Origin: Onthophagus taurus
Lineage: Eukaryota; Arthropoda; Insecta; Coleoptera; Scarabaeidae
Reading direction: 5' to 3'
Assembly (NCBI RefSeq): GCF_036711975.1
Contig: NC_091971.1
Location: forward strand, 3,107,501-3,171,500
Length of the DNA stretch: 64,000 nucleotides
Shown: piece after piece, positions 385-27,200 of the stretch
Numbering within the stretch: the first letter of the stretch is position 1
How the letters are laid out: each line of letters begins with the position of its first letter
Translations under genes and position numbers: made by a program
The notes under the pieces: model-generated
Told to the model about the DNA's origin: nothing
Database searches by the model: none
The model's input: only the letters and a program-made list of their open reading frames with translations

Positions 385-2159
385 TATTTTTTAACTGTCT
401 TATTATTGAAGTTTTTACACTATACTTATTGAAAGTCGAGAAATGCAGTGAGAGTTACTCAGATATTATTTGGCTTATCACTAAAATGAAACTCGAAACA
501 TGTTGATTACGTATATTTGTTTTTCTTTGTTTGGTTCAAATAATTCAATTTTATTGCGCATGCGCTAGATCACCCAATTTTTTTTTAATTATTATTATAT
601 TACAACATTTATGTGACTTGTTTTCATCTAATGACGTTAATTAAAAAGAAACTCGTGTAATTTCATAAATATTGTTTATTAAATAAACTAGAGGAGAACT
701 AAAATAAAGTTTCACTGTTTGGGGTTAGCTTGGAAAACTAAAGATAAGATTCTTCAAGCTGTGGGGACATCACCAGCTAACCAATTACTTTTAGCCCCCA
801 TAATATTAATATTTATAAATACATAACCTAATTTATCAGAGAATTTCTGCTACCAACCTTGAAATTCGAAATATGTTAAATTATTTTTTTATGGAAAACT
901 TTTCTATACGCTAAAAAACGATTAGTTTCGTCCTATCTTATTCAGAAAAAATCAAAGTTTCTTATTTTGTACTTTTTAAGACGCTTTATTTGCTTATTAA
1001 AGAAAATTATTAGTTTTTCAAAACGAAATGTGCCGAAAAAAGTATTTGAGTTGGTAATGGAATTGATTAAATGTCACTAAGTTTAAATATTTTTTTTTAA
1101 ATTGCTTTTTATTCATATTAATTACATTATATACTACTATTATATTCATTTTTTGTTATTAATTGTTATTTATTTATTTCTTTGTTAATTGCGTTGCAAC
1201 ATAATTTCAAAAGTTAGATATTTTTCAGATTTAGTACCTTTATTTTTTTTTAAATTGGTTACGCTATGAAATTGACAACATCCATTTGAGGTTATTTAGT
1301 TTTTATTTTCAAAAATAATTAATATTTTGCAATCAAAACGAGTGAAAAACAAGAAGAATCAACCATAGACAAGTTAAAAAGGACGTTTAAGAAAAATCCC
1401 CCGACATAACTCAAATATCATCTCAAATCGGATGATGAATCTCATTCTAGTTTTAATTTTATTTCGACCTAAAAGGTAATATAACCCAAAATTACTATTT
1501 TAATTTACTTACATTTTCTCCAAATATGTTTTTGATGCTAGTTTATTATGTTTTTTCACTTTCAATCCTTTCTTTAATCCAATGTTTGCGATTAATCTCT
1601 ACGTGTTTTATTTTTTGCAACTTGTAAAGCAAATACACCAGGAAGTTATTCTGTTGCTGATGTTTACTCGGAACGTTTTGTTAATCAAAATGAATCAATC
1701 GAAAAAACAGCAATTATAAGAATATTCCTGATTTATTGCATTAAACAAGATATGTTTATTTAAAACAGACATGGAAAAAAATCTTTAAAATGAGCCTAAT
1801 GAAAGGGTTTCTATAAAGTCAATATATACTATATTCCATACATAATGGGCACCTTGTATTTACCCAGAATTTTAGTGCATTTTCCACTGATATGTCGTAA
1901 AAGGAAATCGGTGTTAGTAATGCAACCTTAATTGATGGTTAAACCATCAAATGGTAATCCAATGACATTATATAAAGTCATTAACCAAAAATACTACTTA
2001 GTTTTCTCTATTTTCATTAGTGTTGACAAAGCTTTATGCCAGACAAAGTAACAGGTAGTTATAAAAACGTTAATTACTCCAAATTTTATTTGAAAAGATA
2101 AAAGGAGATCCTCAATAAAAGGTTTGATTGCACTCATAAAGTTGAAGTTATTTATTAAC
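385..2159. other. Intergenic region between divergent PLA2G15 and IR genes
   Basis: No coding potential is visible on either strand. The DNA is very AT-rich with poly-T runs. It must hold the promoter of the minus-strand lipase near 385-700 and of the plus-strand IR near 1900-2159. The only distinct elements I see are a perfect inverted repeat and a TATA-like sequence near 1932-1977. Confidence 0.6.
1932..1977 (+). promoter_or_regulatory. Inverted repeat plus TATA-like box upstream of the IR gene
   Basis: TTGATGGTT-A-AACCATCAA at 1932-1950 is a perfect 9-base inverted repeat with a one-base centre. It lies about 20 bases upstream of TATAAAG (1971-1977), which is 183 bases before the receptor ATG. 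A dyad next to a TATA box fits a promoter with a homodimeric factor site, but no transcription start is demonstrated. Confidence 0.35.
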
Positions 2160-3809
2160 ATGATTTGGATTTTATTATTGTTACAAATAACGCTAACAAT
2201 TACAGTTAAAGATGTTAAAATAAATTGTCTCGATTACTTATTCGACGAAAATTACGGCGGGTTAAAAGGTTACACGGTTATTATTAATGGATATTTTGAT
2301 ATTAAAAATCCCGTATATTTATGTGATACAAATCACGTAAAAAATTTACCTCAAGATATTAAATATAAAAATTTTGTGATTAACTTTAATACTGTGGATG
2401 AAACAAATATCTTATTAAAATATATTCAAGAATTAGGCAGTTTTTATTGCCAAGCTAATTATATTTTTGAAGTAAATAACGATGAAATCTTACCCATAAT
2501 GGAATTACTAAGAAAATATAAAATCAATAAATCTATTTTGATGTCTAATAATACTATATATTTTTTCGATCCTTATAAACTTGATGAAAAAGAAATTTAT
2601 TTAAAAAATGAGACTTGTAAAGATTTTAAACCAATTTGGGTGTATAAAAATTGCACAATAAAACTTGCTTGGGATATTAGACCACCTTACGCAATAAATG
2701 AGAATAAAAATAGTACTCCTGGAATATTAATTAGTATTATAACAACATTATCAGAACATTATAACGTTAATTTACACTTTAACAAACCTTCTTCTGCCTA
2801 TATTCGAGAAATGCATTTAAAAGGATCTTTTGGGTTAATAACTAAAGAATTCGATAGTGGATTAAGCGATGTTGCTGTTTATGGCGCTCCAGCTCTAAAT
2901 TTAATAACGAATTATAGTTTTATTACAAATTACGTTGTACAAGATGGTTTACAATATTTAATACCAAACCCAAAAGAAATTTCGGGGATACAAAAATTTA
3001 CTTTTTTGATGCCAACTAATTATTGGTTAAAAATTATATTTACAATGTTAATTTGCACCTTTGTAATGATCGCTATCAATTTTCGAACGAAACACACAAC
3101 CAGAATAAGTAGTTTATTTCTTTTGGTTTTAAGTTGGAACTTAAGTATATCGGGGAGTGATAAAGTATTTCAAAAAAAGAATATAATTGTACCTTCGATT
3201 TTATTTTATGGAATCGTTTTGGTGGTTTACATCCAAGGGAAACTATTTAGTACTTTTACTATGCCTATTTATGAAAAACCTATATCAACTATACAAGACA
3301 TTTTTTCGGCACCTTACGATTTAAGAGCTATCCCATATGTTTTTCAACGGTTAAATCAATCTACAAGCAGCAAAAATTTCGTACCAATTAATGACCCTCT
3401 CGATGTAGCAACTGCACATTTTTTTAAATCGAGAGATTTTATAACTCTCGGCCAAGATATTTTCGTGCAATTACACGTCCATTATAAAGGAAAATATAGG
3501 ACTATCCAAACGGAAAAGTTCTTTTGCACAATTCACACGCGAAAATGTTTCCCATTATTCGATCAATTCAACAAAAACATTTTAATTCTACATCATAGCG
3601 GTTTAATTAACCATTTTTGGGATAAAATCCGTTGGAATATCATCTTAAACACTGAATATTACGTTGATAACAATAAGGACCCGAACAAACTTTCAATAGA
3701 CACCTTAAATATAGCCTTTATTGGGTTATCAATTGGAATGTTTTTAGCTGGGATCATTTTTATTTTTGAACTTATAGCATGGAGGTTACAAAACAATCAA
3801 ATAATATAA
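2160..3809 (+). CDS. Ionotropic receptor (IR, divergent chemosensory glutamate-receptor-like channel)
   Basis: Intronless, 549 residues from the first ATG at 2160; the open frame extends 36 bases further upstream but only through a TTG. Residues 1-17 look like a signal peptide. The region around WDIRPPYA starts the ligand-binding S1 lobe. TM1 is near residues 290-307, a pore-loop-like stretch (FLLVLSWNLSISG) at about 320-332, TM2 (IIVPSILFYGIVLVVYIQG) near 342-360, then the S2 lobe and TM3 (IGLSIGMFLAGIIFIFELIAW) near 521-541. The short length, missing amino-terminal domain and C-terminal FELIAW-type ending are typical of insect IRs rather than true glutamate receptors; I do not see the conserved glutamate-binding arginine. 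Single-exon divergent IRs usually serve taste or contact chemosensation, which is inference here. Only 34 bases separate its stop from the next gene's ATG. Confidence 0.85.
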   Translation: MIWILLLLQITLTITVKDVKINCLDYLFDENYGGLKGYTVIINGYFDIKNPVYLCDTNHVKNLPQDIKYKNFVINFNTVDETNILLKYIQELGSFYCQANYIFEVNNDEILPIMELLRKYKINKSILMSNNTIYFFDPYKLDEKEIYLKNETCKDFKPIWVYKNCTIKLAWDIRPPYAINENKNSTPGILISIITTLSEHYNVNLHFNKPSSAYIREMHLKGSFGLITKEFDSGLSDVAVYGAPALNLITNYSFITNYVVQDGLQYLIPNPKEISGIQKFTFLMPTNYWLKIIFTMLICTFVMIAINFRTKHTTRISSLFLLVLSWNLSISGSDKVFQKKNIIVPSILFYGIVLVVYIQGKLFSTFTMPIYEKPISTIQDIFSAPYDLRAIPYVFQRLNQSTSSKNFVPINDPLDVATAHFFKSRDFITLGQDIFVQLHVHYKGKYRTIQTEKFFCTIHTRKCFPLFDQFNKNILILHHSGLINHFWDKIRWNIILNTEYYVDNNKDPNKLSIDTLNIAFIGLSIGMFLAGIIFIFELIAWRLQNNQII

Positions 3810-3843: not shown

Positions 3844-4069
3844 ATGCAAATTCTTAAATACGTGGAAGATGATTTAGCGAATAATTTAGAAGTCGATGGA
3901 GATTATGTTAGTGTTTCAAAACGCATTCTTATGCACATACTACAATTGCCTTCCGAACCAGTATGGCACACGTGTGTTTGTGTAATGTGTTATTTGACAG
4001 TAATAGGACATACAGTTTTTTCTGTTAATGGAAAATGTCATACTCATTTAAGAGAATATAAATTTATCT
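3844..4069 (+). CDS. Channel exon 1: N-terminus and S1 of repeat 1
   Basis: Encodes residues 1-75 plus the first base of codon 76, ending at a strong donor T|GTAAGT. A hydrophobic stretch near residues 40-62 (VWHTCVCVMCYLTVIGH) is taken as S1. The N-terminus before it is short, without the long cytosolic tail of typical CNG subunits. No pyrimidine-rich splice acceptor is seen just before the ATG, so the 5' leader probably begins in or before the IR gene. Confidence 0.75.
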
Positions 4070-7000
4070 GTAAGTAAATTAACAATACAGTAAAATCTTG
4101 ATATAACGGATTCGAACAACTATCCACACCGCTACATTCTGTATTAGTTAGTTCTAGTTTTAGTTCAATAAAAATATACAACAATTTAGCACTGAAAAAT
4201 AAACAAAACTAGAACTAACACTTGACCTAAAACTAGAAACATTCGGATTTAGCCGTTTTGAGAGACGTGCGGCTAAACCCAAAAGTTTCTAGGTTTAGTG
4301 TTAATTCTATAAAAATATACAACAACCTAGCACTGAATCACAATTAAAACTAGAACTAACACTATACCTAGAACTAGAATCATTTGGGTTTAGCCGCACG
4401 TCTCTAAAGACGGCTAAACCCGAATGGTTCTAGTTCTAGGTATAGTGTTAGTTCTAGTTTTACACTTACCCTGCCGTTAGAATTAACATTAGACCTAGAA
4501 CTAGAAACATTTGGGTTTAGCCGTCTTGAGAGACGTGCGGCTAAACTCGAATGTTTCTAGTTCTAGATCTAGTGTTAGTTCTAGTTTTACACTAGTCGTG
4601 TTACCATGTAAAATTAACACTATACCTAGAACTAGAATCATTTGGGTTTAGCCGCACGTCTCTAAAGACGGCTAAACCCGAATGGTTCTAGTTCTAGGTA
4701 TAGTGTTAGTTCTAGTTTTACACTTGCGCTGCCACTAGAACTAACATTCGACCTAGAACTAGAAACATTTGGGTTTAGCCGTCTTGAGAGACGTGCGGCT
4801 AAACCCGAATGTTTCTAGTTCTAGATCTAGTGTTAGTTCTAGTTTTACACTAGTCGTGTTACCATGTAAAATTAACACTATACCGAGAACTAGAATCATT
4901 TGGGTTTAGCCGCACGTCTCTAAAGACGGCTAAACCCGAATGGTTCTAGTTCTAGGTATAGTGTTAGTTCTAGTTTTACACTTGCCCTGCCACTAGAACT
5001 AACATTAGACCTAGAACTAGAAACTTTTGGGTTTAGCCGCCTTAAGAGACTTGAGGCTAAACCCAAATGTTTTTAGTTCTAGGTTTAGTGTTACTTCAAT
5101 AAAAATATACAACAACCAATTAATATTTTCCTTTCTAATAGTCTCTAACAATTTCCACTTAGTTTCATAAAAATATTGAACAATCTAGAATAACAATTAA
5201 AACTAGAACTACCGCCCTTGATTTATCCATCGTGTATAGACAACTCGGGGAATACCCCGAGTTTATCTATAAACATTTATTCGTTATGTCCGAAGTCCGT
5301 TCTAATGACGTCCGTTATATCTAGGATTTAATTAACGAAATCTATTTCTCTATATTTACAGCGATTTTTTACATAGTGGATATTGCACTTGCTATCGATA
5401 CGATTTTAACAGCTATAAGTATTTATTACAAAAAGAAATATCCAGAATTAAGAGTGATAAGACGACGATCATTGATAATATTTATAGAAATTATGTCAGT
5501 GCTTCCCATCGAGTTTTTATCAAAAAATCCAAAAATGATGTGCACTTTAACATTAAACAGAACATTAAGAATCATTTTGATCGTATATTTTAATAGTAAA
5601 AGAACCGATGAGATTCAATCTGGAATACACGGTAATAAATTGATTGAAATTTGTTCTTACCTGGTATTCTTAACGTTACTATCATACGGAATTTACTGCA
5701 ATTATCAATGTCATGCTAATGATAATTGTGATTCTGTGATATGTTCGGATACATTTATGGGTGCCTTAAGTTGTATGGTTACGTCGATCGGCTATGAAGA
5801 CAACCCAGATGATACTTTATTTTTGATAATTAACGTTGTTGTTCAAATGGTGGTTTTTTACTTTGTTTCGGCAGCAGCTTCCGCTTATTTTTCAGTTTCT
5901 TACGTTACTTATTTTTTTAACCAAGTTATTTATTCGAATTGCACCTTAGGAATGATCGATTTTGTAAAACAACTCCAATCACCAAAATTTTTACAAGACA
6001 GGATTTACGAAGAATTTCATTTGGCATGGGCTATGAAGCGAACTTACTGTTATGATTTATCCACCGTAGGATATTCTATGGGAACCACCTTTCTTCATCC
6101 GAGCATGTACAACGAACTAATGATTGATATAGCTTGGGTTTCTTTTAAACATTCCCATTTATTTAGAAACGTCGATTTTCACTATTTACGCTATTTATCT
6201 AATTATGTTGCGTTGGAATACAAACTCCCGGGAGAATATTTATATATAACGGGCGAATGGAAAAATAAAATGATTTATATTTCTTCGGGAACAATCGAAA
6301 TTATATCGAACGAAGATAAATGTTCTTCGATTTTATCACTTTGCGAAGGCACTTTAATAGGTGCTTGTACTTTATTGTTTGGATATAGGTCATCGCATTA
6401 TATTCAATGTAAAACTTTTTGTGAATTTCATATATTAAGGAAAAGTGAGTTTATAAAGTAAGTATATTGAATTTTTATTATTATTTTTTTAATGTTATGT
6501 TGTAAGAACCAAAGCTTATAGATACATATTATAAATTTAAAGATAACAAAGACAAAACTTGGTGTTTGGCAAATTACGCAAGAAATTTTGGATGTTTGGA
6601 AAGGGGATTGTTTTGAGATCAGGAGCTGGTCATAGATTCATTTCAAACGCAAAGATGGTTTTGTATCGGTTGCAGAAAAATGCTATATTGACCAGAAAAA
6701 CATGGCTAAAACACATTACAAACATTACGAGGAGTCTATTATTATGATACACCAAGTCTCAACTATACTAATTTAACGTAGTCAACTACTCTTAATGTAT
6801 GAGAACAATCTTTTTCATGTCCCATGAAATCTTACAAGAGTGATGCTGAAGTTCGTTTCAATGCTATAAGACTATAATAATCTTCATAAAAGAAAACATG
6901 AGCAGATGAACATGAGCCACAGAATACAAGTTAAAGTCCCAGATTTGCCAAATATTAACTCATTTAGTAAGACAGATTTTTGTGGTCAATACATGATAGT

Positions 7001-10000
7001 ATCGGTTCTTACAACACAATAACAAAAAACTACAATGTATTACTTAACTACAATGTATCTTTTTTTTAGAGCATCACAATTTTTTCCCGAAGAATTTAAA
7101 GCAGCAAAAAATAAAATTTATGAACGTTACAACGGCGCATTAGAAGCACACGCCATGTCAGTACGTGCCAGAAAATCGGTTATTAGTAAAAAAGAAAACG
7201 TCGATTCTTACACGCTTTTATGGGTCAAAAATACTTTACATCGTTTAATGGCTACGGATGCTGATTCAACATACAGACATGAATTTCAAAATATCTACCT
7301 GACAACGGAAGTGGAAGTGGAAGCATTTAGCAAATTATTATTCAACGCGGATTTCTTTGATATGTTAGTGGTGAAAGAACGATTACAGGTTGATACCGAT
7401 TCGGTGTTCGTTAGAAATACGTTTCCGTTCATTTTCCAACCGAATTCTATTTTGGCAATTGCTTGGCAAGGTGTTATAACGGTGTTAATTATTCTTGTGT
7501 CTTTTGCGATACCATACGTGGCATTTGTCGTTGAGGAACCACCTAATTCGTATTTTTGGATTATAAGAGGTGCTACACACGTGTATTTATTAGATGTTTG
7601 TATTCAATTATCGACAGCCACAAAAAGTAGGCATGCAATAACCGTTACACACTCAGCAACCATAAAAGCCAGATTACAAACGGTTACGTTTTGGTTGGAT
7701 GTTGGAGCTTTAGTCCCAACTGAAGCTTTTATGTGTATTTTAAGCACTGTGGTCGATTCAAGTATTAAAGCACAATTACAATTGAACCGATTATTAAAAA
7801 TTTATAGACTTAAATTGTTGTTTGATGTGTGGGATCAACAATTTAGTACTAAAAAACTTACAGTTAGATACGTAAAATATTTCTGCCTGGTTATTTATGG
7901 TGTGTTTGTTTTATATTGCGTACTGAGTTATTGGCTTAAATGGTATAAAGTTCCTGAAGAAGGGCATCTTATGTTTAAAGCGGCGTATATTTTCACTAAG
8001 TCGTTTGTGTACCGAAAATTCACCCCACCACACGTTTTTTTCCCGTTTTTAAATATACTCACAGAAATATTTAGAATACTAATGTTTTCTAACATAATGG
8101 CTGGGTTTGTTATGGAAACTCTATCAAAATTTCAAATACAACAGATGTATGGAAGTGTTACCAAAGTGCTTACTCCCGGATATACCCATAAATACGAACA
8201 AAGGATTTTGCAAATTATTGAGTTAGAATGGTATCAAAATCGTTGTAACAGATTACGATCATCGGATAAATTAGTATGTATGATGAGCCAGTTCACTTAC
8301 AGTGAATTTATGACCAGTCAACTTGCTGATGTTTTAAAAACTGTTGAGTTTTTCAATGATTTTTCCGATGACCTTATTGCCGATATATGTGAAATTTTTT
8401 ACATAACCGTACTACCACCAAATGAAGCTGTAATATACGGCGGCGATCTTTCAAATGTCATCACCTTAATATTTAAAGGTACTTACGATATTTTTAACGA
8501 ATACGGTGTTTATACAACCACGAAAAACACACCGACGGTAATTAATTTAATCGAAGCTTTGATGAATATTCCAAGTATTAATACTGTAACGTCGGTAACA
8601 CACTGCAGAATTTTTTACATGAATGCAAACCGTTTTCGTAGCTTATTAGTGAAACATACACGATACGCAAGTGGATTATTGCAGGCTTTAAAAGCAAGCG
8701 ATGATTTGAAAATAAAATTACATCGTATGTCAAGAAAAAATGTTTTTGATGTAAATCAAAGTATAAGGATTAAGGAGAAACGTCGACCAAAATTCTATTA
8801 TTTTACAAATCTTGTCGCCGATTCAGATGAAGAGATCGATTATCATTTACCTTTCGATAGAATACACCCGTTTTCATTTATCCGTTACTTTTTTATGAGA
8901 AAAACAGTAGATCCACACTGCAACTTTATCAAATACTGGGAAACATTTCGTTGCATTTGCGCCATCTTAACCGGAATGTTTACGTTTATAATTAACGCAA
9001 AAGAAATGTTCATAATACTATTAATATTGGATTTCGCAGCGTTAATTGACATTTATTTAAGATTTCATTTTGCGTATTACGACGAAAACGGAGTGTTGAT
9101 ATACCATCCATTAGCAACAGCAAAAAATTACATTACGGGAGCTTTCGCTATAGATTTTTTGGGCATGTTTCCTACGTCTTTTCTTCAATTGGAACTTGGT
9201 GGCATACTAGAACTTGTGCAAAGAGCCAATAAACTCTTACCTATGTATCGATATATAGGTTTTTGCATGACTTTTATACAATATAAAATCACCCCTGTTG
9301 CTAAACCTTATGGTCTGGTGTTTATACCGGTTATTTTGGTTTTAAGTTGTGTTTCTGCTGCTATTATTATTGTTTTGCAATGTGAAGTTATTACTAAAGA
9401 TGACGGGTAATTTATTTAATAGATCAAATTAACAACTATACAGGGTGTTTCGGTGACTGGGGGAACAAATTTAACCACATATACTAGAGTGAAAATGATG
9501 ACGATTCATGTAAAAAATATTAGTAAAAGTCCTCAAATTTCGAAGATACAGGCCATCAAAGTTATGAAATTTTAACACATTTTTCTAAATATCTTAAACA
9601 CTATTTATGGTAATGTGCTGAAATTTGGTACAGTATAAACTAATATCACGTAAAACCATTTTGTAATTTATAAGTTGGATCGGTCCGCGGGAACAATGCT
9701 ATACAGGCTGTTCCTAAAATTTGTTTGCTCAGAACTTTTTTATTCGATCGTAACCCTACATTTATTTTTACAGTTTCTAATAGAAAATTTATTTTAGAAA
9801 CTTTTATTACTCTTAGATAATATTGATAAAAATCACCGTTTTCGTGTTAAATGCAAAAATGTTATGTATGTAACATTTCCAAGTGTAGATTAGGTAAATC
9901 CCTTTTTAATTTGTTTTAGTTGATTTAATAAAAGATAATACAAAATAAATTTAATTTTAACGACAACGCTAACAGGAAAAATAAAACAAATACATAAAAT

Positions 10001-13000
10001 AACAAGACAAGTAATAAAAAATACTATAGGAAATGTTCAAAAAGACCACATGTCCCTTCTGGTATTTAACGGAACGTCACTAAGAACTCGTCCAATCCTT
10101 CCAAATATTGATGGTATGTAGGGCCATCAAGTCTTGACGGCAAGAAAACGGGACCAACAATGACAATCTCCATTAAGATTTCCAAGTTTTGAAAAATTTT
10201 GGATTTTCTTCAGCCCAACTATGTAAATTCCTTAAATTAATTATTCCATCTATGGAAAAAGTAGATTCATCGGTGAAAAGTATTTTTTCTAAAAACTGAT
10301 TATCAATTTGTATTTTCTGTTGCATTTTCTGGCAATATTCCAATCTAATTGGATAATCGGTAAGCTGTACTTCCTGAACCTTACGCAGTGAAATGGGTAA
10401 AGCTGCTGCTTTCGAAGAATACGCCACACAGTCGTTTTTGACGTCCCAAATTGCCTAGCCATGTCCGAAGTACTAGTGGTACTATTTTCTTCTGCATGTT
10501 CATTAACTCATTTTCTCTTAATCGAGCTTCAATTCGAGAAAACGTTTTTCTGTTGGTGGTTCTACGATTCGGGAATTTTTGCCGATAACGGTTAGCGGCT
10601 GCTACGGAATTTCCAAGACATTCACCCAATGTTAAAAGCATATCGGTTTGTTCTCCAAACGTGTAATTTTCCATTTCGAACACTACAAGGTTTTTAGTAT
10701 TTGTTTAAACGACTAAGCGTGTTTACAACTGTCAATGAATTCGTTTGTTAATTGTCATGGCAGACTTAGATTTTTTTTTTAGTGTTATTGAAATGGGAGC
10801 CTACCAGAAGAAGAAAAACAAATTTTATTCTGTACCCACTACATAAAAAAAATAAGAATAACAATAAAAATATCTATATGTGTATAAAACAAAAATAAAA
10901 AAGTTAAGGGGTGAGAATAGGGCTACCGACCAAGGTCTTTCTGCCCGTGATTTTTGTAGTCGGCGGCTTGCTTCAGTCTTCTCTGACGGCCAGGAGTTTT
11001 TGGAAGAGAAGAGGTGGGTTGTTGCGAGGGTGGAGTAATGGAGTCGATATAAGCGTGTGTTGCAAGGCGTTGGTAGGAAAATTTAGAATGGATTTATCGG
11101 ACAAAGATTGAAGACGGGTATGGATAGGGGGTATATCGATAAGTTGGTATAGCAGATTATTGCTAGGGTTAAAGAGGGGATTACGGGGGTTCCTAATTCG
11201 GGTGATGGATCTCAGTGCAGATCTTTCCGCTACTTCCAGGTGGTACTTCGTTCTTCTTGGTGCGTTGCTTAGCAGTATTGATCCATATTCTATGATGGGC
11301 CTGCATATGGTCTTGTAGATGTGCGAGGCACATGAGGTAGAGATTCCGCGACCGCTGAACGAGAGAGATTTAAAGTGTTTGGCGCGTGTCTTTACTTTCA
11401 TCTTCACCTTGATTGCATGAGTGGAAAACTTAAGCGTTCTGTCAAGTATTATGCCCAGATACTTACAGGTTGGTGAGACGGAGATTGCCGTTGATTGGAT
11501 TGTAATTGTGGGAGAGGGAGCGCGGGGTGAGAGGAATGGGACAAAAAATTGTGTTTTTGTGGGATTGAGTAGGATGCGCCATTTTCGGTACCAATTTTCC
11601 GTTTCGTTTATGAGCGTCTGCAGCTTACGGACCGAGGAAGTGATATCCCTACTGTGCGAGACCAATGCTGTGTCGTCGGCATAAAGTAGTGCGTATGCAG
11701 TGAGGTTAAAGGCGTCTGGGTTGTCGTTGTAAAGATCGTGGCAGAAAAGATTGTATAGAGAGGGAGAGATAGGCGAACCCTGAGGAAGGCCTTGCTGAGC
11801 GGAGAAGCTGTGGGAGAAATAATTTTTCAACTTCACGATGGAGGAGCGATTCGACAGGAATTGGTTTATCAGGGTTAGAAGATAGTATGGCGTTTTTAGC
11901 TTATCCAGTTTAAATAGCAATCCTTTGTGCCACACGGAGTCAAAGGCCTTTCGGACGTCCAGAAAAACTGCTGCAGATTTCAGTTTTATAAAACGTGCCG
12001 CCTGGAAGTTGGAAACCAGAATAGTTAGTGGCTGGGATGTTGATTTGCCGGATTGGAAGCCAAATTGGTAAGGCGGAATTTTCTTTGATACCGCAGCCAG
12101 GAGCTTGTTCTTCAAGTGCGTCTCGAAGAGTTTTCCAATTACGGGGAGCAGTGAGATGGGGCGATAGTTGGCTGGATCAGATAGAGAAGAATCCTTCTTG
12201 GGAATACAAGTTATAATAGACGTCTTCCAATCGCGCGGGAAATGCTGAGTCGTAAGGCAAAAGTTAATTATTTTTCTGATAAAGCCATGGATGTTAAGAT
12301 CTAGACTTCTAAGCAGTTTCCTTGTGATGTTATCATAACCGGGAGCGGTATCTTTTCCCTGTCCAAGAAGAGTAAAATATTCGTCTTCCAACATGAGAGC
12401 ATCTTCGGGTGTCTCGAACGGTGTCAAAAATGCGGATTCGTACCAATTATCTATAATGTTTTTATTGTGGGGACAAAACGAAACATCCTCGGTAAAGGTG
12501 AATACACCTTCTAGGTAGTCAGCGTGTATGTTGACAATCTCTTCAGGGTTGGAGTGCACACCGCCATCGGTAGGATCAATGAGCTCCTCCGTTCCAGGTG
12601 TCTTTTGGTATCTTGATAGTTTTCGAATTTCGTGCCAATAGTTTCTTCCTTTACACAGTTTTATTTTGTCACAGGCTTCCATGTACTTTTCCGTTCTGTA
12701 TTGCTGAATTAGTTTCTGTATCTTTTTGTTGAACTCATTAAACTTGGGAGCCTACCATTTTTGCATTTAACACGAAAACGGTGATTTTTATCAACATTAT
12801 CTAAGAGTGATAAAAGCTTCTAAAATAAATTTTCTATTAGAAACTGCAAAAATAAATGTAGGGTTACGATCGAACAAAAAAGTTCTGAGCAAACAAATTT
12901 TAGGGACTCCTGTATAGCATGGTTGCCGCCGCCCGATCAAAGTCAAAATTGGTTCAATGATTTTGCTTGATATTTGTTTACCCTGTATCAAATTTCAACG

Positions 13001-15486
13001 CTCTACCATAAATGGTATTGAAAATATTTAGAAAAATGTGTTAAAATTTTTGAATTTTGATGGCCCATATCTTGGCCATTTGAAGACTTTTATAATAAAT
13101 TTTTATCACCAATCGTCATCATTTTTGCTCTAGTATATGAGGTTAATTTTATTCCCCGAGTCACGGGAACACCCTGTGTATAAATAATAATTTTTCTTTT
13201 AATTTCAGTTTAACTCTTAAATGTGTCAAGGGAAACACATTCGAAATAGCAAATATGTCAGATCCGATATCACCAATTCACGCTCAACTATCCACAATAT
13301 ACATGTCCTGTTCAATGCTAACACCCGCTGGAATACAAGGATTTATAATTCCGGAAGAAATCCAAGTTTTCGCCGGTATATTAATCTTTATAGGGACTTT
13401 TTTGACTGTAACATTTGCCGGTAGATTCATAACGCTTTACTCTTTTACTCACGGTACTTTACTAAAATATCAAAATGATATTAAATCGTTACTTACCCAC
13501 ATGAATTCTCTCAAAGTTAGCTCGGTTTTTCAAAAACAGCTCATTGCAAATTACGAAATTAAATATAAAATGATACAAACGAATGATGTTCATGCATTTT
13601 TAGGTCAAGTTTCGCAGCCGCTTAAATTAGATGTTCTTTATGATCTTTATGGGATTAGATTAGCTCAAGTTTCGGTTTTTACGAAAGGCGATATGGGGTT
13701 TTATAGAAATCTTTTACCTCTCATGAACTACAATATTATTAGTAAAGATGGGTTTTTAGGGAGATGTAATGACGTGGGTTCTGATATTTATATTGTGTAT
13801 AGTGGTGTTGTGCAGGTACTTAATTCGATGGGTAAACAAGAGAGGGTTTTATACGTGGGAAGTATGTTTGGAAATATGAATAATAGGGAGTATATTAGGT
13901 ACGTGTGTAGTTTTCAAGCTGCCACGCACGTGGAGTACTTTCATTTACCCGCTTTAGAGTTTTTTAAAATCTTAAAATATTACCCTACAACTTGTAACGA
14001 ATTTATTTTCTTTAGGTCAATTTTTTCCAAATATATCGCAGCTCATAAAGTCGATATAAATGATGGTAGTGTTGCGAACAAGTTAAATTTTAAAGGATTC
14101 GTTTTTCGACACAATACTAAACGAATGAAATCGTGGAAGTTTTTTATATTGGTGTTTGTTTGTTATTTCGGAAATATTCTTAATTCGTATCAGTTAAGCG
14201 TCCAAGAATATTCACAAACCATTTTAACGCTGATGTATATCTTCGATGTTGCTTATGTATTAGATTATTACATAACTTCTAGAACATCTTATATAGATAA
14301 AACAGGTTCGCATGTCACAAATTTAGACATGATACAACAATATCGGAAAAGAAATAAGTTTTTGTATGTAATGAGAATTATTGGGTTAATACCTTTCGAA
14401 ATCCCCGTTTTATTACTTTACAGTATGGAGAAGAGTTCGAAATATTTACTTTATAGCATAGCTCGTTCAAATCGTTATTGTCGCCTTATTTTTATCTTCA
14501 CTTATTTTACTCAAAAATCTTATAGATTAAACGTTAACGTTTATTTAATGCGTTTGAGTTATATATTTTTGTGGACCACTGTAGCCCTAACAATAATTAC
14601 AATGTTTATCATCGCGCCTTCAAGTTATTTTTGGACGGATGATATTTATCCGCCAATTCCCCATTACAAAACAATGTTTGATATGAACTCCACGGAAAAA
14701 TTTATGACGTACGTAAATTGTTTGCATTTAGCAACAGATTTCATTTCGTTTACACCACAATTAAGATTTCATCCGGTTTCGATAGGATACATTATTCTTT
14801 TTACAATAATCAGGATCCTCTCATTACATTTAATGTATTTGTGTTATAGCCAAATATACTGTTTGGTCGATCAATATTCTTTTCACTTCGTGCAATTTCG
14901 CGATTCGCTACAACGCTTAGAAAACTTTATGAAACGCGAAGATGTTTCGGTTGCTTTGTATGATAGAATAATGCATTATGTACGAAAGCGTTGGTCGAGG
15001 AAAGCAACAGATGTTTTCCCGGCGTTAATGGAGAAAGCTCCGTTATATTTACGCGAAGACATACTTATGAGCGTTTTTGGGACTATCCTAACCGCACAAC
15101 CCGTATTCGAATCTTGCAATAATGATTTACTTAGACAAATTGCTGGAAAGATACGAACAAGAATCTTTTATAGGCAAGATTACATACAATTTGAAGGAGT
15201 CATCGATGAGTGCATGTATTTTATTCTTGAAGGAGAAGTTATTGTTACGAATGATTCCGGAATAATGTTGAAAACTTTAAAAGGGGGTGAAGCTTTTGGC
15301 GTACAACAAGGTGTCGATTCTAAAGCGAAACATGAATTCACTTACATGGCAGGGAAGAATAGCACGATTGGAATTTTAAATTCGAATAATTGGAAATATT
15401 TGTTAGGATATTTCCCCGTAGATGAAATCAAAATTCGATCTTTTATTAATGAATTTAGAAAATCCAAAAAAGTTAAAATTAAATAA
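3844..15486 (+). CDS. Four-repeat (pseudotetrameric) CNG/HCN-like channel, CNGK-type layout
   Basis: Four exons (3844-4069, 5362-6457, 7070-9406, 13209-15486) join at consensus GT/AG sites with phases 1, 2 and 2 and total 5937 bases, giving 1978 residues and a stop. An in-frame TGA at 3814 supports the ATG at 3844. The protein contains four copies of a unit made of S1-S6 plus a cyclic-nucleotide-binding-like beta-roll: about residues 40-440, 570-980, 1060-1485 and 1530-1955. CNG and HCN subunits normally carry one unit and assemble as tetramers; the sea-urchin sperm CNGK channel is the known case of four units in one chain of similar length. S4 arginines survive partly in each repeat. The pore loops are odd: repeat 1 has TSIGYED (216-222) where TVGYGD is expected, and repeats 2-4 lack a GYG-like filter. 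Function, ion selectivity and ligand are unknown. A pseudogene is unlikely because no frame break occurs across 5.9 kb of coding sequence. Confidence 0.85.
4088..5332. mobile_element. TA-flanked pogo/Tigger-like nonautonomous element built of tandem palindromes
   Basis: Starts with CAGTAAAATCTTGATATAAC next to a TA and ends with a degenerate inverted copy (CGTTATATCTAGGATTTA) before another TA. The CAGT...CGATATAACG terminus resembles pogo/Tigger elements. Inside are about seven near-perfect palindromes of 100-120 bases, each centred on a GGTTTAGCCG / CGGCTAAACC hairpin, arranged as a 258-base higher-order repeat of two alternating palindromes. It has no coding capacity. It fills intron 1 of the channel gene almost completely: removing it leaves an intron of about 47 bases. 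A relative lies at 46910-47183. Confidence 0.7.
5362..6457 (+). CDS. Channel exon 2: S2-S6 and CNBD of repeat 1
   Basis: Acceptor TTTACAG at 5355-5361, donor AA|GTAAGT at 6458. Residues 76-440. The start IFYIVDIALAIDTIL is a typical CNG/HCN S2; S4 (LNRTLRIILIVYF) lies near 140-152; the pore loop has SCMVTSIGYED at 212-222; S6 follows near 228-255. A beta-roll begins around 363 with GEYLYITGEW and FGYRSS, where the arginine could be the cyclic-phosphate-binding one, but the usual FGE is changed to IGA. This is the only repeat that keeps a Gly-Tyr pair in the filter position. Confidence 0.85.
6494..7023. mobile_element. Degenerate DNA-transposon remnant filling intron 2 of the channel gene
   Basis: Imperfect terminal inverted repeats GTTATGTTGTAAGAACC (6494-6510) and its inverse GGTTCTTACAACACAATAAC (7004-7023). 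The interior contains only short open stretches that I cannot assign to a transposase family. Without it intron 2 (6458-7069) would be about 82 bases. Confidence 0.5.
7070..9406 (+). CDS. Channel exon 3: whole repeat 2 and S1-S5 of repeat 3
   Basis: Acceptor TTTTTTTAG at 7061-7069, donor GG|GTAATT at 9407. Residues 441-1220. Repeat 2 has S1 near 571-594, S2 near 602-624, S4 (NRLLKIYRLKLLF) near 680-692, S5 near 709-729, a pore stretch FTKSFVYRKFTPP (749-761) with no GYG, S6 near 767-791, and a beta-roll near 864-980. Repeat 3 starts near 1039; S4 (VQRANKLLPMYRY) is near 1157-1169 and S5 near 1188-1211. The intron after it falls between S5 and the pore of repeat 3. Confidence 0.85.
10040..10683 (-). 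pseudogene. Broken transposase with DUF4817-type HTH and DDE domain (IS630/Tc1-related)
   Basis: Reading from 10683, the N-terminal helix-turn-helix contains LGNSVAAANRYRQKFPNRR and then TFSRIEARLRENELM, the pattern of the DUF4817 domain found on insect mariner-like transposases. After a frame change near 10400 the catalytic part has FTDESTFSIDG and SWAEENP, then GPVFLPSRLDGPTYHQYL. A further frame change leads to VPLNTRRDMW, just before where the third catalytic acidic residue would be expected, and then the frame stops. It is therefore an inactive copy belonging to the surrounding long-TIR element. Confidence 0.7.
10807..12744 (-). mobile_element. 5'-truncated Jockey-type non-LTR retrotransposon
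   Basis: Bounded by a 13-base target-site duplication TGGGAGCCTACCA at 10794-10806 and 12745-12757, so insertion limits are well defined. The element lies on the minus strand: truncated ORF2 at its 5' end (12744) and a 3' region of about 165 bases at 10807-10972. It was inserted inside the older long-TIR transposon right next to that element's right arm. Confidence 0.85.
10973..12744 (-). pseudogene. ORF2 fragment: reverse transcriptase of Jockey-type LINE
   Basis: Open without stops from the truncation point to 10973; the first ATG is at 12682 (569 residues from there). The reverse transcriptase motifs are clear: NYRPISLLPVIGKLFE, FLDVRKAFDSVWHKGL, QQGLPQGSPISPSLY and the catalytic YADDTALVS, followed by WRILLNPTKTQ and CKYLGIILDRTL. 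The endonuclease domain is missing because of 5' truncation, so the copy cannot move by itself, although the remaining frame is intact, which suggests a fairly recent insertion. The motif set and order fit the Jockey superfamily. Confidence 0.85.
13209..15486 (+). CDS. Channel exon 4: pore-CNBD of repeat 3 and whole repeat 4
   Basis: Acceptor TTTTAATTTCAG ending at 13208; joining GG|T restores the frame as LTLKCVKGN. Residues 1220-1978. The pore of repeat 3 reads MLTPAGIQGF (1256-1265) and its S6 is near 1270-1297; the beta-roll near 1375-1480 includes GSDIYIVYSGVVQV and GSMFGNM. Repeat 4 has S1 near 1530-1550, S4 with three spaced arginines (ARSNRYCRLIF) near 1638-1648, pore stretch LATDFISFTPQL (1727-1738) without GYG, and a beta-roll at 1877-1955 with CMYFILEGEVIV and GGEAFG but no arginine at the phosphate-binding position. 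Confidence 0.85.
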
Positions 15487-16164: not shown

Positions 16165-19100
16165 TTTTTGAGTATTTGATCAATTCAAAAATCAAGTTTA
16201 AAGTATTGTTTTCTCAAAAACTACAAGTAATTTTTCAAAACTTGTTAGTTCATTGGAAAGAGGACACTTTTATTAACACTTTGGGAAATTTTCATGCTCA
16301 TATTCCAAGAACTGGATTTTATACGAATTATTAAAACTTAATCTGCGAAAATTGCAAAATTCGAAAAAGTCGTTTATTTCAAAAATTTATTTCTCAAGAA
16401 CTGAAAGTGATTTTTCAAAACAGCTTTTTGCATTAAAAAGAGGATACTATAATTAATAATTGGTGATATTTCCACAAGGATCCTTCAAAAAATTAATTTT
16501 ATAGCGAATTTTGAAAGTTATCGATTAAAATTGCAACATCGAAAATTTTATCAAAACTTCAAATATTGTTTTTTCAAAAACTAAAAGTTATTTTTCAAAA
16601 CATGTTGGTTCATTGGAAAGAGGACACTTTTATTAACATTTTGGGAAATTTTCATACTCATATTCCAAGAAGCCGATTTTATACGAATTTTTATATCTTA
16701 ATCTGCGAAAATTGCAAAATTCGAAAAAATTGTCGTTTATTTCAAAAATTTATTTCTCAAGAACTGAAAGTGATTTTTCAAAACGGCTTTTTGCATTAAA
16801 AAGAAGATACTATAATTAATAATTGATGATATTTCCACAAGGATCCTTCAAGAAATTAATTTTATAGCGAATTTTGAAAGTTATCGATTAAAATTGCAAC
16901 ATCGAAAATTTTATCAAAACTTCAAATATTGTTTTTTCAAAAACTAAAAGTTATTTTTCAAAACGTGTTGGTTCATTGGAAAGAGGACACTTTTATTAAC
17001 ATTTTGGGAAATTTTCATACTCATATTCCAAGAAGCCGATTTTATACGAATTTTTAAAACTTAATCTGCGAAAATTGAAAAATTCGAAAAAGTCGTTTAT
17101 TTCAAAAATTTATTTCTCAAGAACTGAAAGTGATTTTTCAAAACGGCTTTTTGCATTAAAAAGAAGATACTTTAATTAATAATTGGTGATATTTCCACAA
17201 GGATCCTTCAAAAAATTAATTTTATAGCAAATTTTGAAAATTATCGATTAAAATTGCAACATCGAAAATTTTATCAAAACTTCAAATATTGTTTTTTCAA
17301 AAACTAAAAGTTATTTTTCAAAACATGTTGGTTCATTGGAAAGAGGACACTTTTATTAACATTTTGGGAAATTTTCATACTCATATTCCAAGAAGCCGAT
17401 TTTATACGAACTTTTAAAACGTAATCTGCGAAAATTGCAAAATTCGAAAAAAATGTTGTTTATTTCAAAAATTTATTTCTCAAGAACTGAAGGTGATTTT
17501 TCAAAACGGCTTTTTGCATTAAAAAGAGGATACTATAATTAATAATTGGTGATATTTCCACAAGGATCCTTCAAGAAATTAATTTTATAGCGAATTTTGA
17601 AAGTTATCGATTAAAATTGCAACATCGAAAATTTTATCAAAACTTCAAATATTGTTTTTTCAAAAACTAAAAGTTATTTTTCATAACATGTTGGTTCATT
17701 GGAAAGAGGACACTTTTATTAACATTTTGGGAAATTTTCATACTCATATTCCAAGAAGCCGATTTTATACGAACTTTTAAAACGTAATCTGCGAAAATTG
17801 CAAAATTCGAAAAAAATGTTGTTTATTTCAAAAATTTATTTCTCAAGAACTGAAGGTGATTTTTCAAAACGGCTTGTTGCATTAAAAAGAGGATACTATA
17901 ATTAATAATTGGTGATATTTCCACAAGGATCCTTCAAGAAATTAATTTTATAGCGAATTTTGAAAGTTATCGATTAAAATTTCAACATCGAAAATTTTAT
18001 CAAAACTTCAAATATTGTTTTTTCAAAAACTAAAAGTTATTTTTCAAAACATGTTGGTTCATTGGAAAGAGGACACTTTTATTAACATTTTGGGAAATTT
18101 TCATACTCATATTCCAAGAACTGGATTTTATACGAATTTTTAAAACTTAATCGGCGAAAATTGCAAAATTCGAAAAAATTGTCGTTTATTTCAAAAATTT
18201 ATTTCTCAAGAACTGAAAGTGATTTTTCAAAACGGCTTTTTGCATTAAAAAGAGGATACTATAGTTAATAATTGGTGATATTTCCTCAAGGATCCTTCAA
18301 AAAATTAATTGTATAGCGAATTTTGAAAGTTATCGATTAAAATTGCAACATCGAAAATTTTATCAAAACTTCAAATATTGTTTTTTCAAAAACTAAAAGT
18401 TATTTTTCATAACATGTTGGTTCATTGGAAAGAGGACACTTTTATTAACATTTTGGGAAATTTTCATGCTCATATTCCAAGAACTGGATTTTATACGAAT
18501 TTTTAAAACTTAATCGGCGAAAATTGAAAAATTCGTAAAAATTGTCGTTGATTTCAAAAATTTATTTCTCGAAAAGTGAAAGTGATTTTTCAAAACAGCT
18601 TTTTGCATTAAAAAGAAGATACTTTAATTAATAATTGGTGATATTTCCACAAGGATCCTTCAAGAAATTAATTTTATAGCGAATTTTGAAAATTATCGAT
18701 TAAAATTGCAACATCGAAAATTTTATCAAAACTTCAAATATTGTTTTTTCAAAAACTAAAAGTTATTTTTCATAACATGTTGGTTCATTGGAAAGAGGAC
18801 ACTTTTATTAACATTTTGGGAAATTTTCATGCTCATATTCCAAGAACTGGATTTTATACGAATTTTTAAAACTTAATCGGCGAAAATTGAAAAATTCGTA
18901 AAAATTGTCGTTGATTTCAAAAATTTATTTCTCGAAAAGTGAAAGTGATTTTTCAAAACAGCTTTTTGCATTAAAAAGAAGATACTTTAATTAATAATTG
19001 GTGATATTTCCACAAAGATCCTTCAAGAAATTAATTTTATAGCGAATTTTGAAAATTATCGATCAAAATTGCAACATCGAAAATTTTATCAAAACTTCAA

Positions 19101-22417: not shown

Positions 22418-24267
22418 TTAATGAAAATTGTTACCTTGATCGAAACACGTAGGATTAATGATGTTAATCAAATCGTTATCACTCATCGACGGAAACGATG
22501 GCGGAATCATCCTATCCTCATTTCTTTTATCAATTTCGCTTGACGACGTTAACGTTTCCGGTTGGGTTGTTACCGTCGATGGAAATTGATTACCAACGAA
22601 ACTAGCCTCGGTAACTATCGTTTGTAATGCACTATCTTGAATTAAACTATTTGTTTGGATGTTATTGTTATTATTGATCCCATCTGGAAGATGCAATATA
22701 TTACCAAACGCAATTTTTTTTTGTGTTGCCAATAAATCGGCCGTTGCATTTAATAAGATATCTTTTTCCGTTTCAATCGTTCTTTGAATCGGTGATATAG
22801 CGTGTAAATGTTCTGGTGACATATGAGATTGTTGAGTGGTAGGTTGATTAACTGGTGATAAAATGTTTGTTAAATTTTGTTGTTGAATGATCGGGTTGTC
22901 AACAGTCGTGGCAGAAAACGCTGTGGTCGATAACAAAGTGTCTTGAATTATATTAGATGATCGACACATCAGACTCGGTGAAACCTGAGAGTTCAAAATG
23001 ACTTCGGGGGAAATATTCGGCGATTGACTTATGGCTTGTTGCAAAGTCGTTGGTGTAGTCAAGGCAGTGTTAATAATAGGCGATACCATTAAGGAGTTTT
23101 GAGAGTTTAATAAAACATCTTGATTGCCCAACATCAAGTTTTGCTGGGGAGATGTGTTTCGTATCATCTTTGAATTATTTATATGAGTCTCTACAGCACA
23201 ATTAACTAAAGCGTCCAACTTATCGGTTGTAATGGCAGAAGTTAAAATGGCGTTATCTAATGCTGGAGGCATTGATGGAACGGTTGTGGTTATAGGTAAT
23301 TGCTCTGCCATTTTTTCAGCTATGGCGGCAGCTTCACTTTTAGCGACGATGCTTAGAACGTCCGATTGATGTGCGTTTACGATTGGTCTTTGATTCTGGA
23401 CGAACGCCGGTTCAACTGCACCTAATCGTGATATATTTTGAGAAGGGCTCATAATTCCAGTTACTATTACCTCATTGACTTTCTGTCCGAACATACTCTG
23501 TACCAAACGGTTCTTGTTTTCAAGCGTGGTGAGATACGACTCCACACTTAGGCCACTTTGGGTAGGCAATGGAGCACTGGACGCTTCCGTCACACCAAAG
23601 CTTTGCAAAGTGGCTAGCGATGGAGCGGAAGTGTTCGCCAAATCGGCTACGGTTGCCATAGAAATTTTACGTAAATCCATAACTTTGAGATCTTCAACAG
23701 ACGCGTTTGATATGTCCGAATGAACGGTGGTAAGTAAACCTTGATTGAATATCCTATTATCTTGAAGGTGAACACTACAAGATGATTCGTCATTTAGCGA
23801 CGAAAGATTGGAATTCGAGACGTTAACATCCAACGAACTGTCGCAGACAGTTACGGGACGACTCATCGAATTTCTTCTGACAATCATCTCAACACTATTT
23901 TCATTTACAAGACTAATGTTTGAATTTTCATTAATCATCGATAAATTAGAGTCACCGGGATGAACATCTAATGAGCTTTCGGAAATATGACGATATCGAC
24001 TGGATCGTAACTCGCTGGGATCCATAATAGAGCTTTGAGTATTTTCATCGAGAAGTTCTTGTTTCAATCCGCGTAGCGGTGGCGAATTGCTGTCGGTGTT
24101 GGTGTTTGTTGATGATCTGCGTTGTGCTAGCGGAACCATGTTAGTTCCTGGTGGGGGCATCATATCGACGTCTTGTTCTTGTTTAGTAAGCGATGACCAC
24201 ATCATCTTCGATAGAAATGGGGCGCTTGATGTTGTTGGTGTTGATGTAGCTTGCGAATCCACGCGTA
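22418..24267 (-). CDS. NFAT: NFAT exon 10: C-terminal Ser/Thr/Asn/Gln-rich region and stop
   Basis: Acceptor TGTTTTACAG then TACGCGTGG; phase 1 join with exon 9. Residues 500-1115. Low-complexity polar sequence with a possible SUMO site LKQE (in [13 protein letters not shown]) and a more ordered-looking stretch around [20 protein letters not shown]. Numerous SP dipeptides (SPSQN, SPEVI, SPVNQ, SPIQR) could be phosphorylated. There is no long polyglutamine run such as occurs in the vertebrate and fly proteins. Confidence 0.9.
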
Positions 24268-27200
24268 CTGTAAAACACATGAAAAACTGGTTAGACGACT
24301 CCTTCCGGGAAGGTCAATCTATATTACAGTTGCTGCCATGAAACCACTGTAAGAAAATGGGAGGACAGTTGCCACTCAAGCCAAAATTCTTTTAAAATGA
24401 TCTCATAAAAAAATAAATAATAAATAAATAAAAAAATTAAAAAAGTTTGATTTTAAAATTAATTAATTTGGCTTGATAGACATGACCCACAATATTAACG
24501 CTCCAAACGTACATCCAAACAACATCTCAAACAAACCACTCTCATAACAGATTCACATCAACCAGTGCACTGCCTTAATCGTGCCCCTAATAAGTGGGAT
24601 CATCAGGATATATGATAATAAAATGAATATGCGAGTTTTCAGGCTTATTAATTTACAAGTTGATATAAACTAAAAATTGTAAGTAAATGGATAAAAATAC
24701 AACGTCAATAAAATATTAACAAATTAAAGAAACCTCTCTACTACCAAAACCAAGCTTAATATTGATTGAAAATTATATTTTTAATAATCTTTTCAAAACA
24801 TGAATTTAAGTACACATTTTTGAATATTAAAGAGCTTAAATAATATACCACCACCACAATGTGATAAGATAAGAATTAATATAATTATCTTAAAAATTAA
24901 ATTTATTTTTACAAATCTCAAAATAGTTGGTAACAAAATGGACCAATATATTTTTTTTGGCTATAAAGAGGAGATACTTTATGATACAATTGGTAATATT
25001 GCGACAAAATTTGTGATTTTTACTTCTCCACATTATTAGATAAGATATATAAATCGATATGGTTTGGGTAATCTCTTTATGATAAGATGGCTTAAAATAC
25101 CTTGTCTACTAGGTATGTAGTTGTCTATTAGTGCGGGAAAGCAGTTGGAAGGAAATGACAGATAGCTATCTTAGCATATATGGCCAAAATTTTTATAGAG
25201 TTCTGTCATCGCAATTCTAAATAGAACAAAGAACGTTCACTAACATCCTCTAAAGACGAGGCACACATCACAACTGGAGTGTAAAATAGACCTACAAGGT
25301 TTAGCTTCAAAAATTAGTTAATTAAGAAGTAGACACAAGTATAGAATTTGCAGAGTTGCCATAAATCGTATATTGTGCATCAATACAGAGTTCTGCATTT
25401 TGGTGACACTTGCAGGAAGATTTTTGCTTAATTTAAGGTAGATGTTTTTTGGAGTGGTCGTGCAAAGTTGATTAAGCAGTATGCGAAGCATATGAAAAGA
25501 TTTGTATGTTTTGTACAAACCCTTCATTGTATGAGCTCGAAAAATATTCAGAGTACGCTGCAATTAATACGCAATACCTTCTGGGAAGTTATGTACACAA
25601 AAAATGTATCTACTTCGTAATATTACCTAGAGTAATCATAAAGTAACCCCTGTTTACAGTAATTTTATATGCACAAGACGTATTTCCATTCCATTTATGG
25701 TTAAACAGTGAAATACCCTGGTTTTGAATTAAAATCAATTTAAAATAATAGATAACAAATGTTATTTATTAAAAAAGTGGTTAATTAAAATTAAAAATTT
25801 AATTAATAGAAAAAAGTTTTTTAAAATAAAACCAAGATTGAACTAATTTTTACCAGAGAATATTTTTCGGATTACGATTGAAAGGAAAAAATGAAAATTT
25901 TAACAATAACGTGCCAGGAATGAGTAATGAAATGGTATAAAAACGCCCTTGCAATACACAAATTAATAGTACAAACAGATTCATACAAAGAAGCGAAATT
26001 TAATCATGACACAGTCAACAATAACAGGTAAGTAAATGTGTATAGAGAGCGGAAAAAATGTTTTAGATGTTGGGTAAACCGTGATGTAAAGGTTTTTGTA
26101 GAGAGGGTTCTTAAAAAAAAACACAAATAAAAGATTGGGGGATTTGATAGACTGATTTGATAGAATGAACGGAGTGTGAGGGTGGTTTTGAAAAGGATTG
26201 AAAGACTAAACACTCTCGCCACCCCTTTCACAACTCATTCGCTCCCTGCGGGAACATTGCGGGTCGGTTTTTCAGGGCGTATACGGCACCTCCGGTATAT
26301 CTCCTGCAAGAGAAACAAAAAGGCTGCATCCCAGGCCCTACCTAAAATAAACGCCGATTTTTTTAGAGATTCTTTTAAGAATCTTAACGGCGATTAATTA
26401 ACAAAAACGAAATTTGATGATCCTGTGAAACAAATAGGAAAAATTGGATTGTTGTACACTGTACAAGTTAAATAAATAAAAAAAACGTATATAAATAAAG
26501 GTAACGTAACTTTAAAAAGGTAAAAACTGTATTAGGTAGATTATGTATGAGTAACTGTCGCTGTGTTGTGTATTTTGTTGATGCAAGAAGCGATTTTTAT
26601 ATTTGTGAAATTATTAAATCTCTTCTTACATTAATGTTTGTTATGTGTGTATTCAAAAATATTCTCCAGTACTTAAAAAAATTAAAAAAGAAAATAAAAT
26701 AAAAATGTTAGTAATTTACGAAATAATATGTGAAAATTGTATGAACGCAAATTATATTGAAAATGAGATATGCACATAATAGGAGCATCGTCAAATCGCA
26801 CAAATAAGTCAAATTACACAAACAACTTGTACACAATATTAGTTAACAAAAGGAACAAGAATGATTCAAGTAAATCGTAAAAAAACTAGTAATTGCGAAA
26901 TACTTAGGAACATGATAAATTATAAATGAATAACGAAATGATAATTTGTTTTTTGTGATGTATGTATGATTGATGTGTATTTTGTATGTGTGATGTGAAT
27001 TTGTATGAGGTGTTTTTGGTTTTTTAAGTACCCGTGATGCAAGAGAACCTGAATGACACGGACATCGGCGAAGGTTAGGCACCGCAGGCTGATAGCAGTC
27101 TCCGGCAGGCAGCACCTCTGCGTATACAGAGCCTGTACGCTGTATGAGACAAAGTGGAAAGCAAAACGCATTTAAGAAAAAGTTCAGTACTTTTGTCAGT

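Follow-up and report, generated by a model that had tools for sequence, protein, structure and literature searches.

A single chain with four channel units is encoded in the 64,000-nucleotide stretch of the Onthophagus taurus genome analysed here (contig NC_091971.1, positions 3,107,501 to 3,171,500, G000:C6:3107501-3171500; "the window" below). Each unit of the predicted protein consists of segments S1–S6, a C-linker and a cyclic-nucleotide-binding domain (CNBD), and the gene is one member of a family that occupies at least 16 loci. In the papers surveyed, the only other four-repeat channels of the cyclic-nucleotide type are those called CNGK, a sperm potassium (K+) channel that occurs in marine invertebrates and certain fish and is present also in a choanoflagellate. 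With slightly better than even confidence, we read the beetle proteins as a branch of the CNGK-like channels that has expanded and evolves fast, and which would be neither K+-selective nor classically gated by cyclic guanosine monophosphate (cGMP) any more.

The gene has four exons with GT-AG sites, which splice in frame to 1978 residues followed by a single terminal stop. The coordinates (3844-15486) and the splicing given in an initial annotation of the window are exact: the product is identical (100% over 100%) to P0001, an entry of 1978 residues named 'uncharacterized protein [Onthophagus taurus]' in NCBI and UniRef, and this name also bears out the insect origin assigned at that stage. 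Two further in-frame splice choices are possible at intron 2, where P0001 agrees with the choice adopted. At this base composition, an open frame of 758 codons would arise by chance with a probability near 10^-25. The parts of the gene, with repeats 1 to 4 denoted R1 to R4, are listed below.

3844..4069, + strand: exon 1, start codon, N-terminus and S1 of R1 (residues 1-75), with the S1 hydrophobic peak at residues 43-61; matches P0001
4070..5361, + strand: intron 1, with a tandem array of a 258-base unit, 2.9 copies, at 4357-5097
5362..6457, + strand: exon 2, R1 from S2 to the CNBD beta-roll (residues 76-441), with PF00027 at 6228-6455
5781..5801, + strand: R1 selectivity-filter site, TSIGYED, a K+-type T-x-x-G-Y in which Glu takes the place of the final Gly
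6458..7069, + strand: intron 2, between exons 2 and 3
7070..9406, + strand: exon 3, end of CNBD 1, whole R2 (residues 535-985, about 7350-8702) and S1-S5 of R3; assigned from PF00027 at 8409-8654 and the R2 profile against HCN4
9407..13208, + strand: intron 3, with long inverted repeats at 9437-9864 and 12753-13180 flanking a minus-strand reverse-transcriptase frame at 10973-12751
13209..15486, + strand: exon 4, R3 pore, C-linker and CNBD (to about 14049), whole R4 (about 14050-15483) and stop codon; assigned from two PF00027 stretches and the profiles against CNGA1
15163..15396, + strand: R4 CNBD, the strongest of the four Pfam matches (residues 1872-1949)

Exon 3 covers the last part of CNBD 1, the whole of R2 and the beginning of R3, and exon 4 continues from within R3 through R4. 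The boundaries between R2 and R3 and between R3 and R4 are thus inside single exons, and those repeats are therefore not simply separate genes. A paralogue, P0002 (2029 residues), is colinear with P0001 over 98% at 22% identity. PF00027, the cyclic-nucleotide-binding domain, passes as four stretches in the window protein (Pfam, total E 1.7e-25). Profiles of the individual repeats, each built from the window gene and P0002, were compared with solved structures; the R1 profile matched KCNH1 (E 5.8e-18), chiefly from the pore to the CNBD, while those of R2, R3 and R4 matched HCN4 (E 4.6e-17), CNGA1 (E 3.2e-19) and CNGA1 (E 1.4e-26), respectively, from S1/S2 to the CNBD. Profiles from five family members placed R3 with CNGA1 (E 1.4e-38) and R1 with SthK (E 2.9e-24). 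Each repeat profile thus matches solved CNBD channels, and profile searches find four channel units and not fewer. Hydrophobic peaks consistent with S1, S2, S3, S5 and S6 are seen in every repeat, part of the 31 peaks being in CNBDs or linkers, and for R1-R4 of the window gene the helix core of S4 has, in turn, 2, 4, 3 and 3 basic residues (counted by eye). The four PF00027 stretches, the repeat profiles, the identity with P0001 and the boundary-crossing exons together show a predicted single-chain architecture with four S1-S6-C-linker-CNBD units of CNG/HCN type, as claimed initially; the observation of a four-unit gene is confirmed.

An AlphaFold2 model of the R4 C-linker and CNBD, aligned with the three other window repeats, reached a predicted local distance difference test score (pLDDT) of 64. 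The top Foldseek matches of this model are CNGA1/B1, HCN, TAX-4 and SthK (E about 1e-11); since the template-modelling (TM) scores are about 0.5 and the root-mean-square deviations about 10-13 Å, the claim is limited to the domain fold, and the model supports a predicted CNBD fold and nothing beyond. A model of exon 4 from a two-row alignment (pLDDT 31.9) was discarded. In an NCBIfam scan the matches were CNBD-driven or weak, all under the cut-off. Pfam lists no PAS domain for P0001, where PF00027 alone appears at E<=1, or for the other family proteins scanned.

The gene had been framed as a single one, which is not borne out. With P0002 as the query against the 290.8-Mb assembly, 26 matches were obtained; pooling of neighbouring matches leaves 15 places, among them P0002 itself, and the window gene brings the total to at least 16 loci. 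The count is a lower bound, as scoring covered only 23 of 91 candidates and the list did not include the window gene. Joining of split matches into loci is by inference, and intactness was examined for single-frame loci only; loci were counted though split into several matches on C2, C3 (2.6 Mb), C16 and C7 (4.27 Mb), some of them without a protein model. By the repeat profiles, six loci (L014, L015, L016, L018, L021 and a joined locus on C5 of 1908 codons) contain R1, R2, R3 and R4 in order within one unbroken frame of 1903-2044 codons. R1 is whole in L014 and L015; the other four start near S2 of R1, which suggests a short first exon like that predicted for the window gene. Thirteen gene models were compared (P0001, P0002 and F1-F11), of which F4, F8, F9, F10 and F11 are without one or more repeats or parts. 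Two cysteines of R3 before the pore (P0001 residues 1212 and 1225) are invariant in 13/13 models, and may perhaps form a turret disulfide.

Three further candidates were left out of the family: C15:2407, with an R3 match only (50 bits), and two Ion_trans frames some 15-20 kb before P0002 (C6:6865533 and C6:6869315), which have no match to the repeat profiles. The region of the latter (L035, G000:C6:6864500-6871500) contains adjacent large Ion_trans frames, one with an ankyrin-like start by eye, as in TRP channels. Protein-database searches gave P0001 and P0002 alone, with no relatives beyond O. taurus; their word filter is limiting, since the P0002 query missed even P0001, and the result is not evidence of absence.

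A tree was built from 45 repeats of the 13 models and two references, excluding seven repeats shorter than 330 residues. R1, R2, R3 and R4 form four separate clades, each with an ultrafast bootstrap (UFBoot) of 100, and this separation by repeat number implies a single four-repeat ancestor for the family. The same subgroups recur inside the repeats where present (F1, F2, F3, F9, F10 and F11; F4, F5, F6, F7 and P0001; F8 and P0002). Separate fusions are also rejected in the two genes first compared (approximately unbiased (AU) test, p 5.8e-5).

The hallmark of CNGK, a GYG or GFG filter, is nowhere in the window protein (string search), and on this point the initial likening to CNGK is not supported as it stood. 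The R1 filter site reads GYE, and R2-R4 of the window protein are without a K+ or CNG filter; the canonical filter thus shows as lost in the predicted product of this gene. A resemblance of the 'TP' following the filter in window R2-R4 to the CNG 'GETPP' was dropped, as P0002 is without TP. Among the 11 R1 sequences, GFG is present at the filter in three, as TGKGFG (F1), TGMGFG (F9) and TNKGFG (F10). No GYG or GFG is found at the filter in 12 R2, 12 R3 and 10 R4 sequences, and the sole further occurrence among the 13 models is one GFG of F10, in the linker between R1 and R2. In the R1 family profile the filter site is aligned with TTIGYG of SthK, and the filter T and G are kept in 5/5 R1 sequences chosen out of the 11 available. 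Big departures from TVGY/FG are described as rare, the metazoan CNG clade (TIGE) being the one exception as a clade (PMC7576140).

The pockets of the CNBDs also depart from the familiar pattern. Their key arginine site is numbered here as HCN Arg591. In the window protein this site is occupied by Ser, Ser, Tyr and His in R1-R4, and the canonical cyclic-nucleotide arginine is thus shown to be lost from all four predicted pockets. Across the family it is Arg in 2/44 gap-free repeats, both of them R3 (F2 and F3; 2/11 gap-free R3, the R3 counts omitting the gapped R3 of F9). The site is Ser in 10/11 R1 and His in 8/10 R4; Glu582 is retained in 9/11 R1, and at the adjacent site, Arg590, Arg is found in 11/11 gap-free R3. 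The pocket changes in these alignments are conserved by repeat, unlike random decay.

Selection was assessed from the identity at each codon position in six pairs of genes and several regions; the ratio of nonsynonymous to synonymous substitution rates was left aside because third positions are near saturation. The order of identity is position 2>1>3 in 6/6 pairs and every region compared. For P0001 and F4 (1652 codons) the values at positions 1/2/3 are 46.5/57.9/34.6%, against about 27-29% expected from composition; in S5-S6 of this pair they are 40.1/52.9/27.9%. The S5-S6 region keeps the 2>1>3 pattern, and the pore segment is therefore held as a membrane protein despite the change in its residues. 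The statement that an uninterrupted 5.9-kb frame means selection thus stands as to selection, through the codon positions, and falls as to the open frame as proof.

In the best tree, R1 and R3 are split from R2, R4 and the references (UFBoot 72), with R2 and R4 joined (82). AU values for the pairings are p 0.68 for 1-3/2-4, 0.43 for 1-4/2-3 and 0.08 for 1-2/3-4. The pairing of CNGK repeats is reported as 1-3 and 2-4 (PMC7576140), which is that of the best beetle tree; the latter is consistent with CNGK, not proof of it. Descent from CNGK is favoured by this pairing and by the GFG in R1 of three relatives; it is unproven from a tree of beetle repeats and two references. The choice between a CNGK relative and an independent fusion had been offered for a single gene, which the family replaces; its CNGK side is the one favoured, with other pairings still standing.

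In the CNGK-like reading, the ancestor would have been one four-repeat protein, most likely a CNGK-type channel of ancient origin, and its R1 probably had a K+-type TxxGFG filter. Once the gene had duplicated, every repeat would have acquired its own job, and in the CNBD pockets the canonical arginine would have been almost entirely lost, with repeat-specific conserved residues in its place. The four units may fold as a pseudotetramer that encloses a single central pathway, with the four CNBDs forming a ring beneath it; we infer this assembly from the repeat architecture. The resulting channel would be asymmetric, non-K+-selective and weakly voltage-dependent, and the CNBD ring would drive gating via something besides classical cGMP binding.

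Several observations weigh against this reading. The initial annotation had proposed that the Ion_trans and cyclic-nucleotide-binding models should each match four times; PF00027 does so, and PF00520 (Ion_trans) has no Pfam match to the window protein at E<=1 and is unlisted for 11/11 family proteins or pieces scanned against Pfam. In a genome scan with the Ion_trans model, one weak match above the cut-off was found, in R1 of F2 (27.4 bits, E 2.1e-4). The GFG of R1 is a minority state in the family, the loss of the pocket arginine is incomplete, as R3 of F2 and F3 retains it, and neither the 1-4/2-3 nor the 1-2/3-4 pairing is rejected by the AU test. Finally, in every repeat the two segments with the lowest conservation are the pore loop (13-16% mean identity over the 13 models) and S6 (14-15%), compared with 22-39% in the CNBDs; subfamilies provide exceptions, with pore loops at 23% in R1 of the F1 group and 29% in R3 of the P0001 group, and low conservation of the pore and S6 is also expected of a non-conducting protein.

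Such a protein would retain its four-repeat framework of membrane segments and CNBDs for sensing, for regulation or as an adaptor, with a pore that passes no ions; it is a doubtful but serious alternative. The divergence of the pore loop and S6 and the missing filters of window R2-R4 would fit it; the excess of identity at codon position 2 over position 3 in S5-S6 argues for constraint as a membrane protein, and the retention of T and G in the R1 filters of the chosen sequences also speaks against a pore without function.

That an insect gene of the CNG, HCN or KCNH type underwent a four-fold fusion of its own, with no kinship to CNGK, appears unlikely. The available CNGK species lists do contain no arthropod (0 of 11 species in PMC4749565 and none of seven in PMC8835908), the top solved match of the two-sequence profiles varies by repeat, and the alternative pairings stand under the AU test. 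However, in a set of ten sequences the AU test (p 0.031), though not the Shimodaira-Hasegawa test (p 0.22), rejects a tree in which R3 and R4 group with CNGA1, and R2 groups with HCN4; a K+-type GFG persists in R1 of three members, at a site for which the metazoan CNG rule would be TIGE (PMC7576140); and the best tree has the CNGK pairing.

That the gene is a decaying pseudogene, or an artefact of gene prediction with the units as separate genes, is very improbable and already largely refuted: the gene model does rest on DNA sequence, and intron 3 is crowded with mobile-element sequence, but six relatives have four repeats in a single frame, P0002 is colinear, codon positions follow 2>1>3, and exons 3 and 4 span repeat boundaries.

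Compared with known channels, the beetle proteins share with CNGK/tetraKCNG (sea urchin, ascidian and zebrafish sperm; choanoflagellate, sponge and cnidarian) the four six-transmembrane-CNBD repeats in one polypeptide, and also the unequal fate of the four CNBDs (PMC4749565). In CNGK, the R3 CNBD is able to bind cGMP in sea urchin, and cyclic-nucleotide gating is absent in zebrafish; further CNGK papers are PMC6259924, PMC3481119 and PMC6660944. The beetle differs in its filters, GFG at the filter being confined to R1 of three relatives, in being an arthropod, and in having at least 16 loci in one genome, whereas the available CNGK species lists give one sequence per species. CNG channels (CNGA1, CNGA3) are the nearest solved relatives of R3 and R4 over S1/S2 to the CNBD; the beetle protein in contrast has four units per chain and no TIGE filter, and in the window gene no Arg at the phosphate-binding site. 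HCN is the nearest solved relative of R2, which is without CIGYG, and the S4 charges of the window protein (2-4 per repeat) compare with about seven in HCN. KCNH/EAG and bacterial SthK are nearest to R1, by the two-sequence and the five-member profile respectively, and differ from the beetle chain with its four repeats and no Pfam-listed PAS domain. Internal fusion of units with specialised repeats is also described for two-repeat CNBD channels, which have two repeats and a filter of TVGYG or near variants (PMC7576140). No description of an insect or beetle four-repeat channel was found in the open-licence papers searched, in keeping with the initial suggestion that the gene is possibly undescribed; the main text of PMC8382682, on dung-beetle male genes, does not mention ion channel, cyclic nucleotide or potassium.

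The surroundings of the gene are rich in repeats. The intron 1 array belongs to a region (4155-5097) in which the 258-base copies agree at 95% and look palindromic by eye. The arms in intron 3 are 78-95% complementary, and the minus-strand frame within them has 592 codons with a match to RVT_1 (E 3.1e-41); the insert appears to be a retroelement that lies inside an inverted-repeat element. Directly downstream of the channel gene, a satellite extends over 16204-18000, with five copies of 363-base units at 96% in the part scanned. Upstream, a 571-codon open frame (2094-3809, + strand) ends 34 bases ahead of the channel start codon; its layout, by eye, looks like that of a divergent insect ionotropic receptor, and it has no Pfam match and a best PDB match at chance level (E 0.57). 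An exon at 33123-33473 (- strand) encodes a Rel homology DNA-binding domain (PF00554, E 2e-11), presumably NFAT-like, and a 631-codon frame at 22418-24313 (- strand) may belong to the same gene. A 270-codon frame at 57034-57846 (+ strand), without a Pfam match, is presumably mitochondrial mTERF-like.

Taken as a whole, the family may tentatively be proposed, with somewhat less than even confidence, as a new class: multigene, one-chain, four-repeat CNBD channels in insects, or at least in a dung beetle, several of them in a single 6-kb frame, with pores that have departed from the K+ and CNG filter types and with repeat-specific conserved pockets, perhaps driven by sperm competition or chemosensation. 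A role in sperm, sensory or other rapidly evolving tissue is a guess. If the CNGK-like reading is true, this beetle family of at least 16 loci would show the fate of a pseudotetrameric channel once its repeats evolve singly. It would offer a natural series of filters (GFG, GYE and none) and of pockets for studies on the rebuilding of selectivity and gating, as well as candidate genes for a male or sensory function that evolves rapidly in insects.

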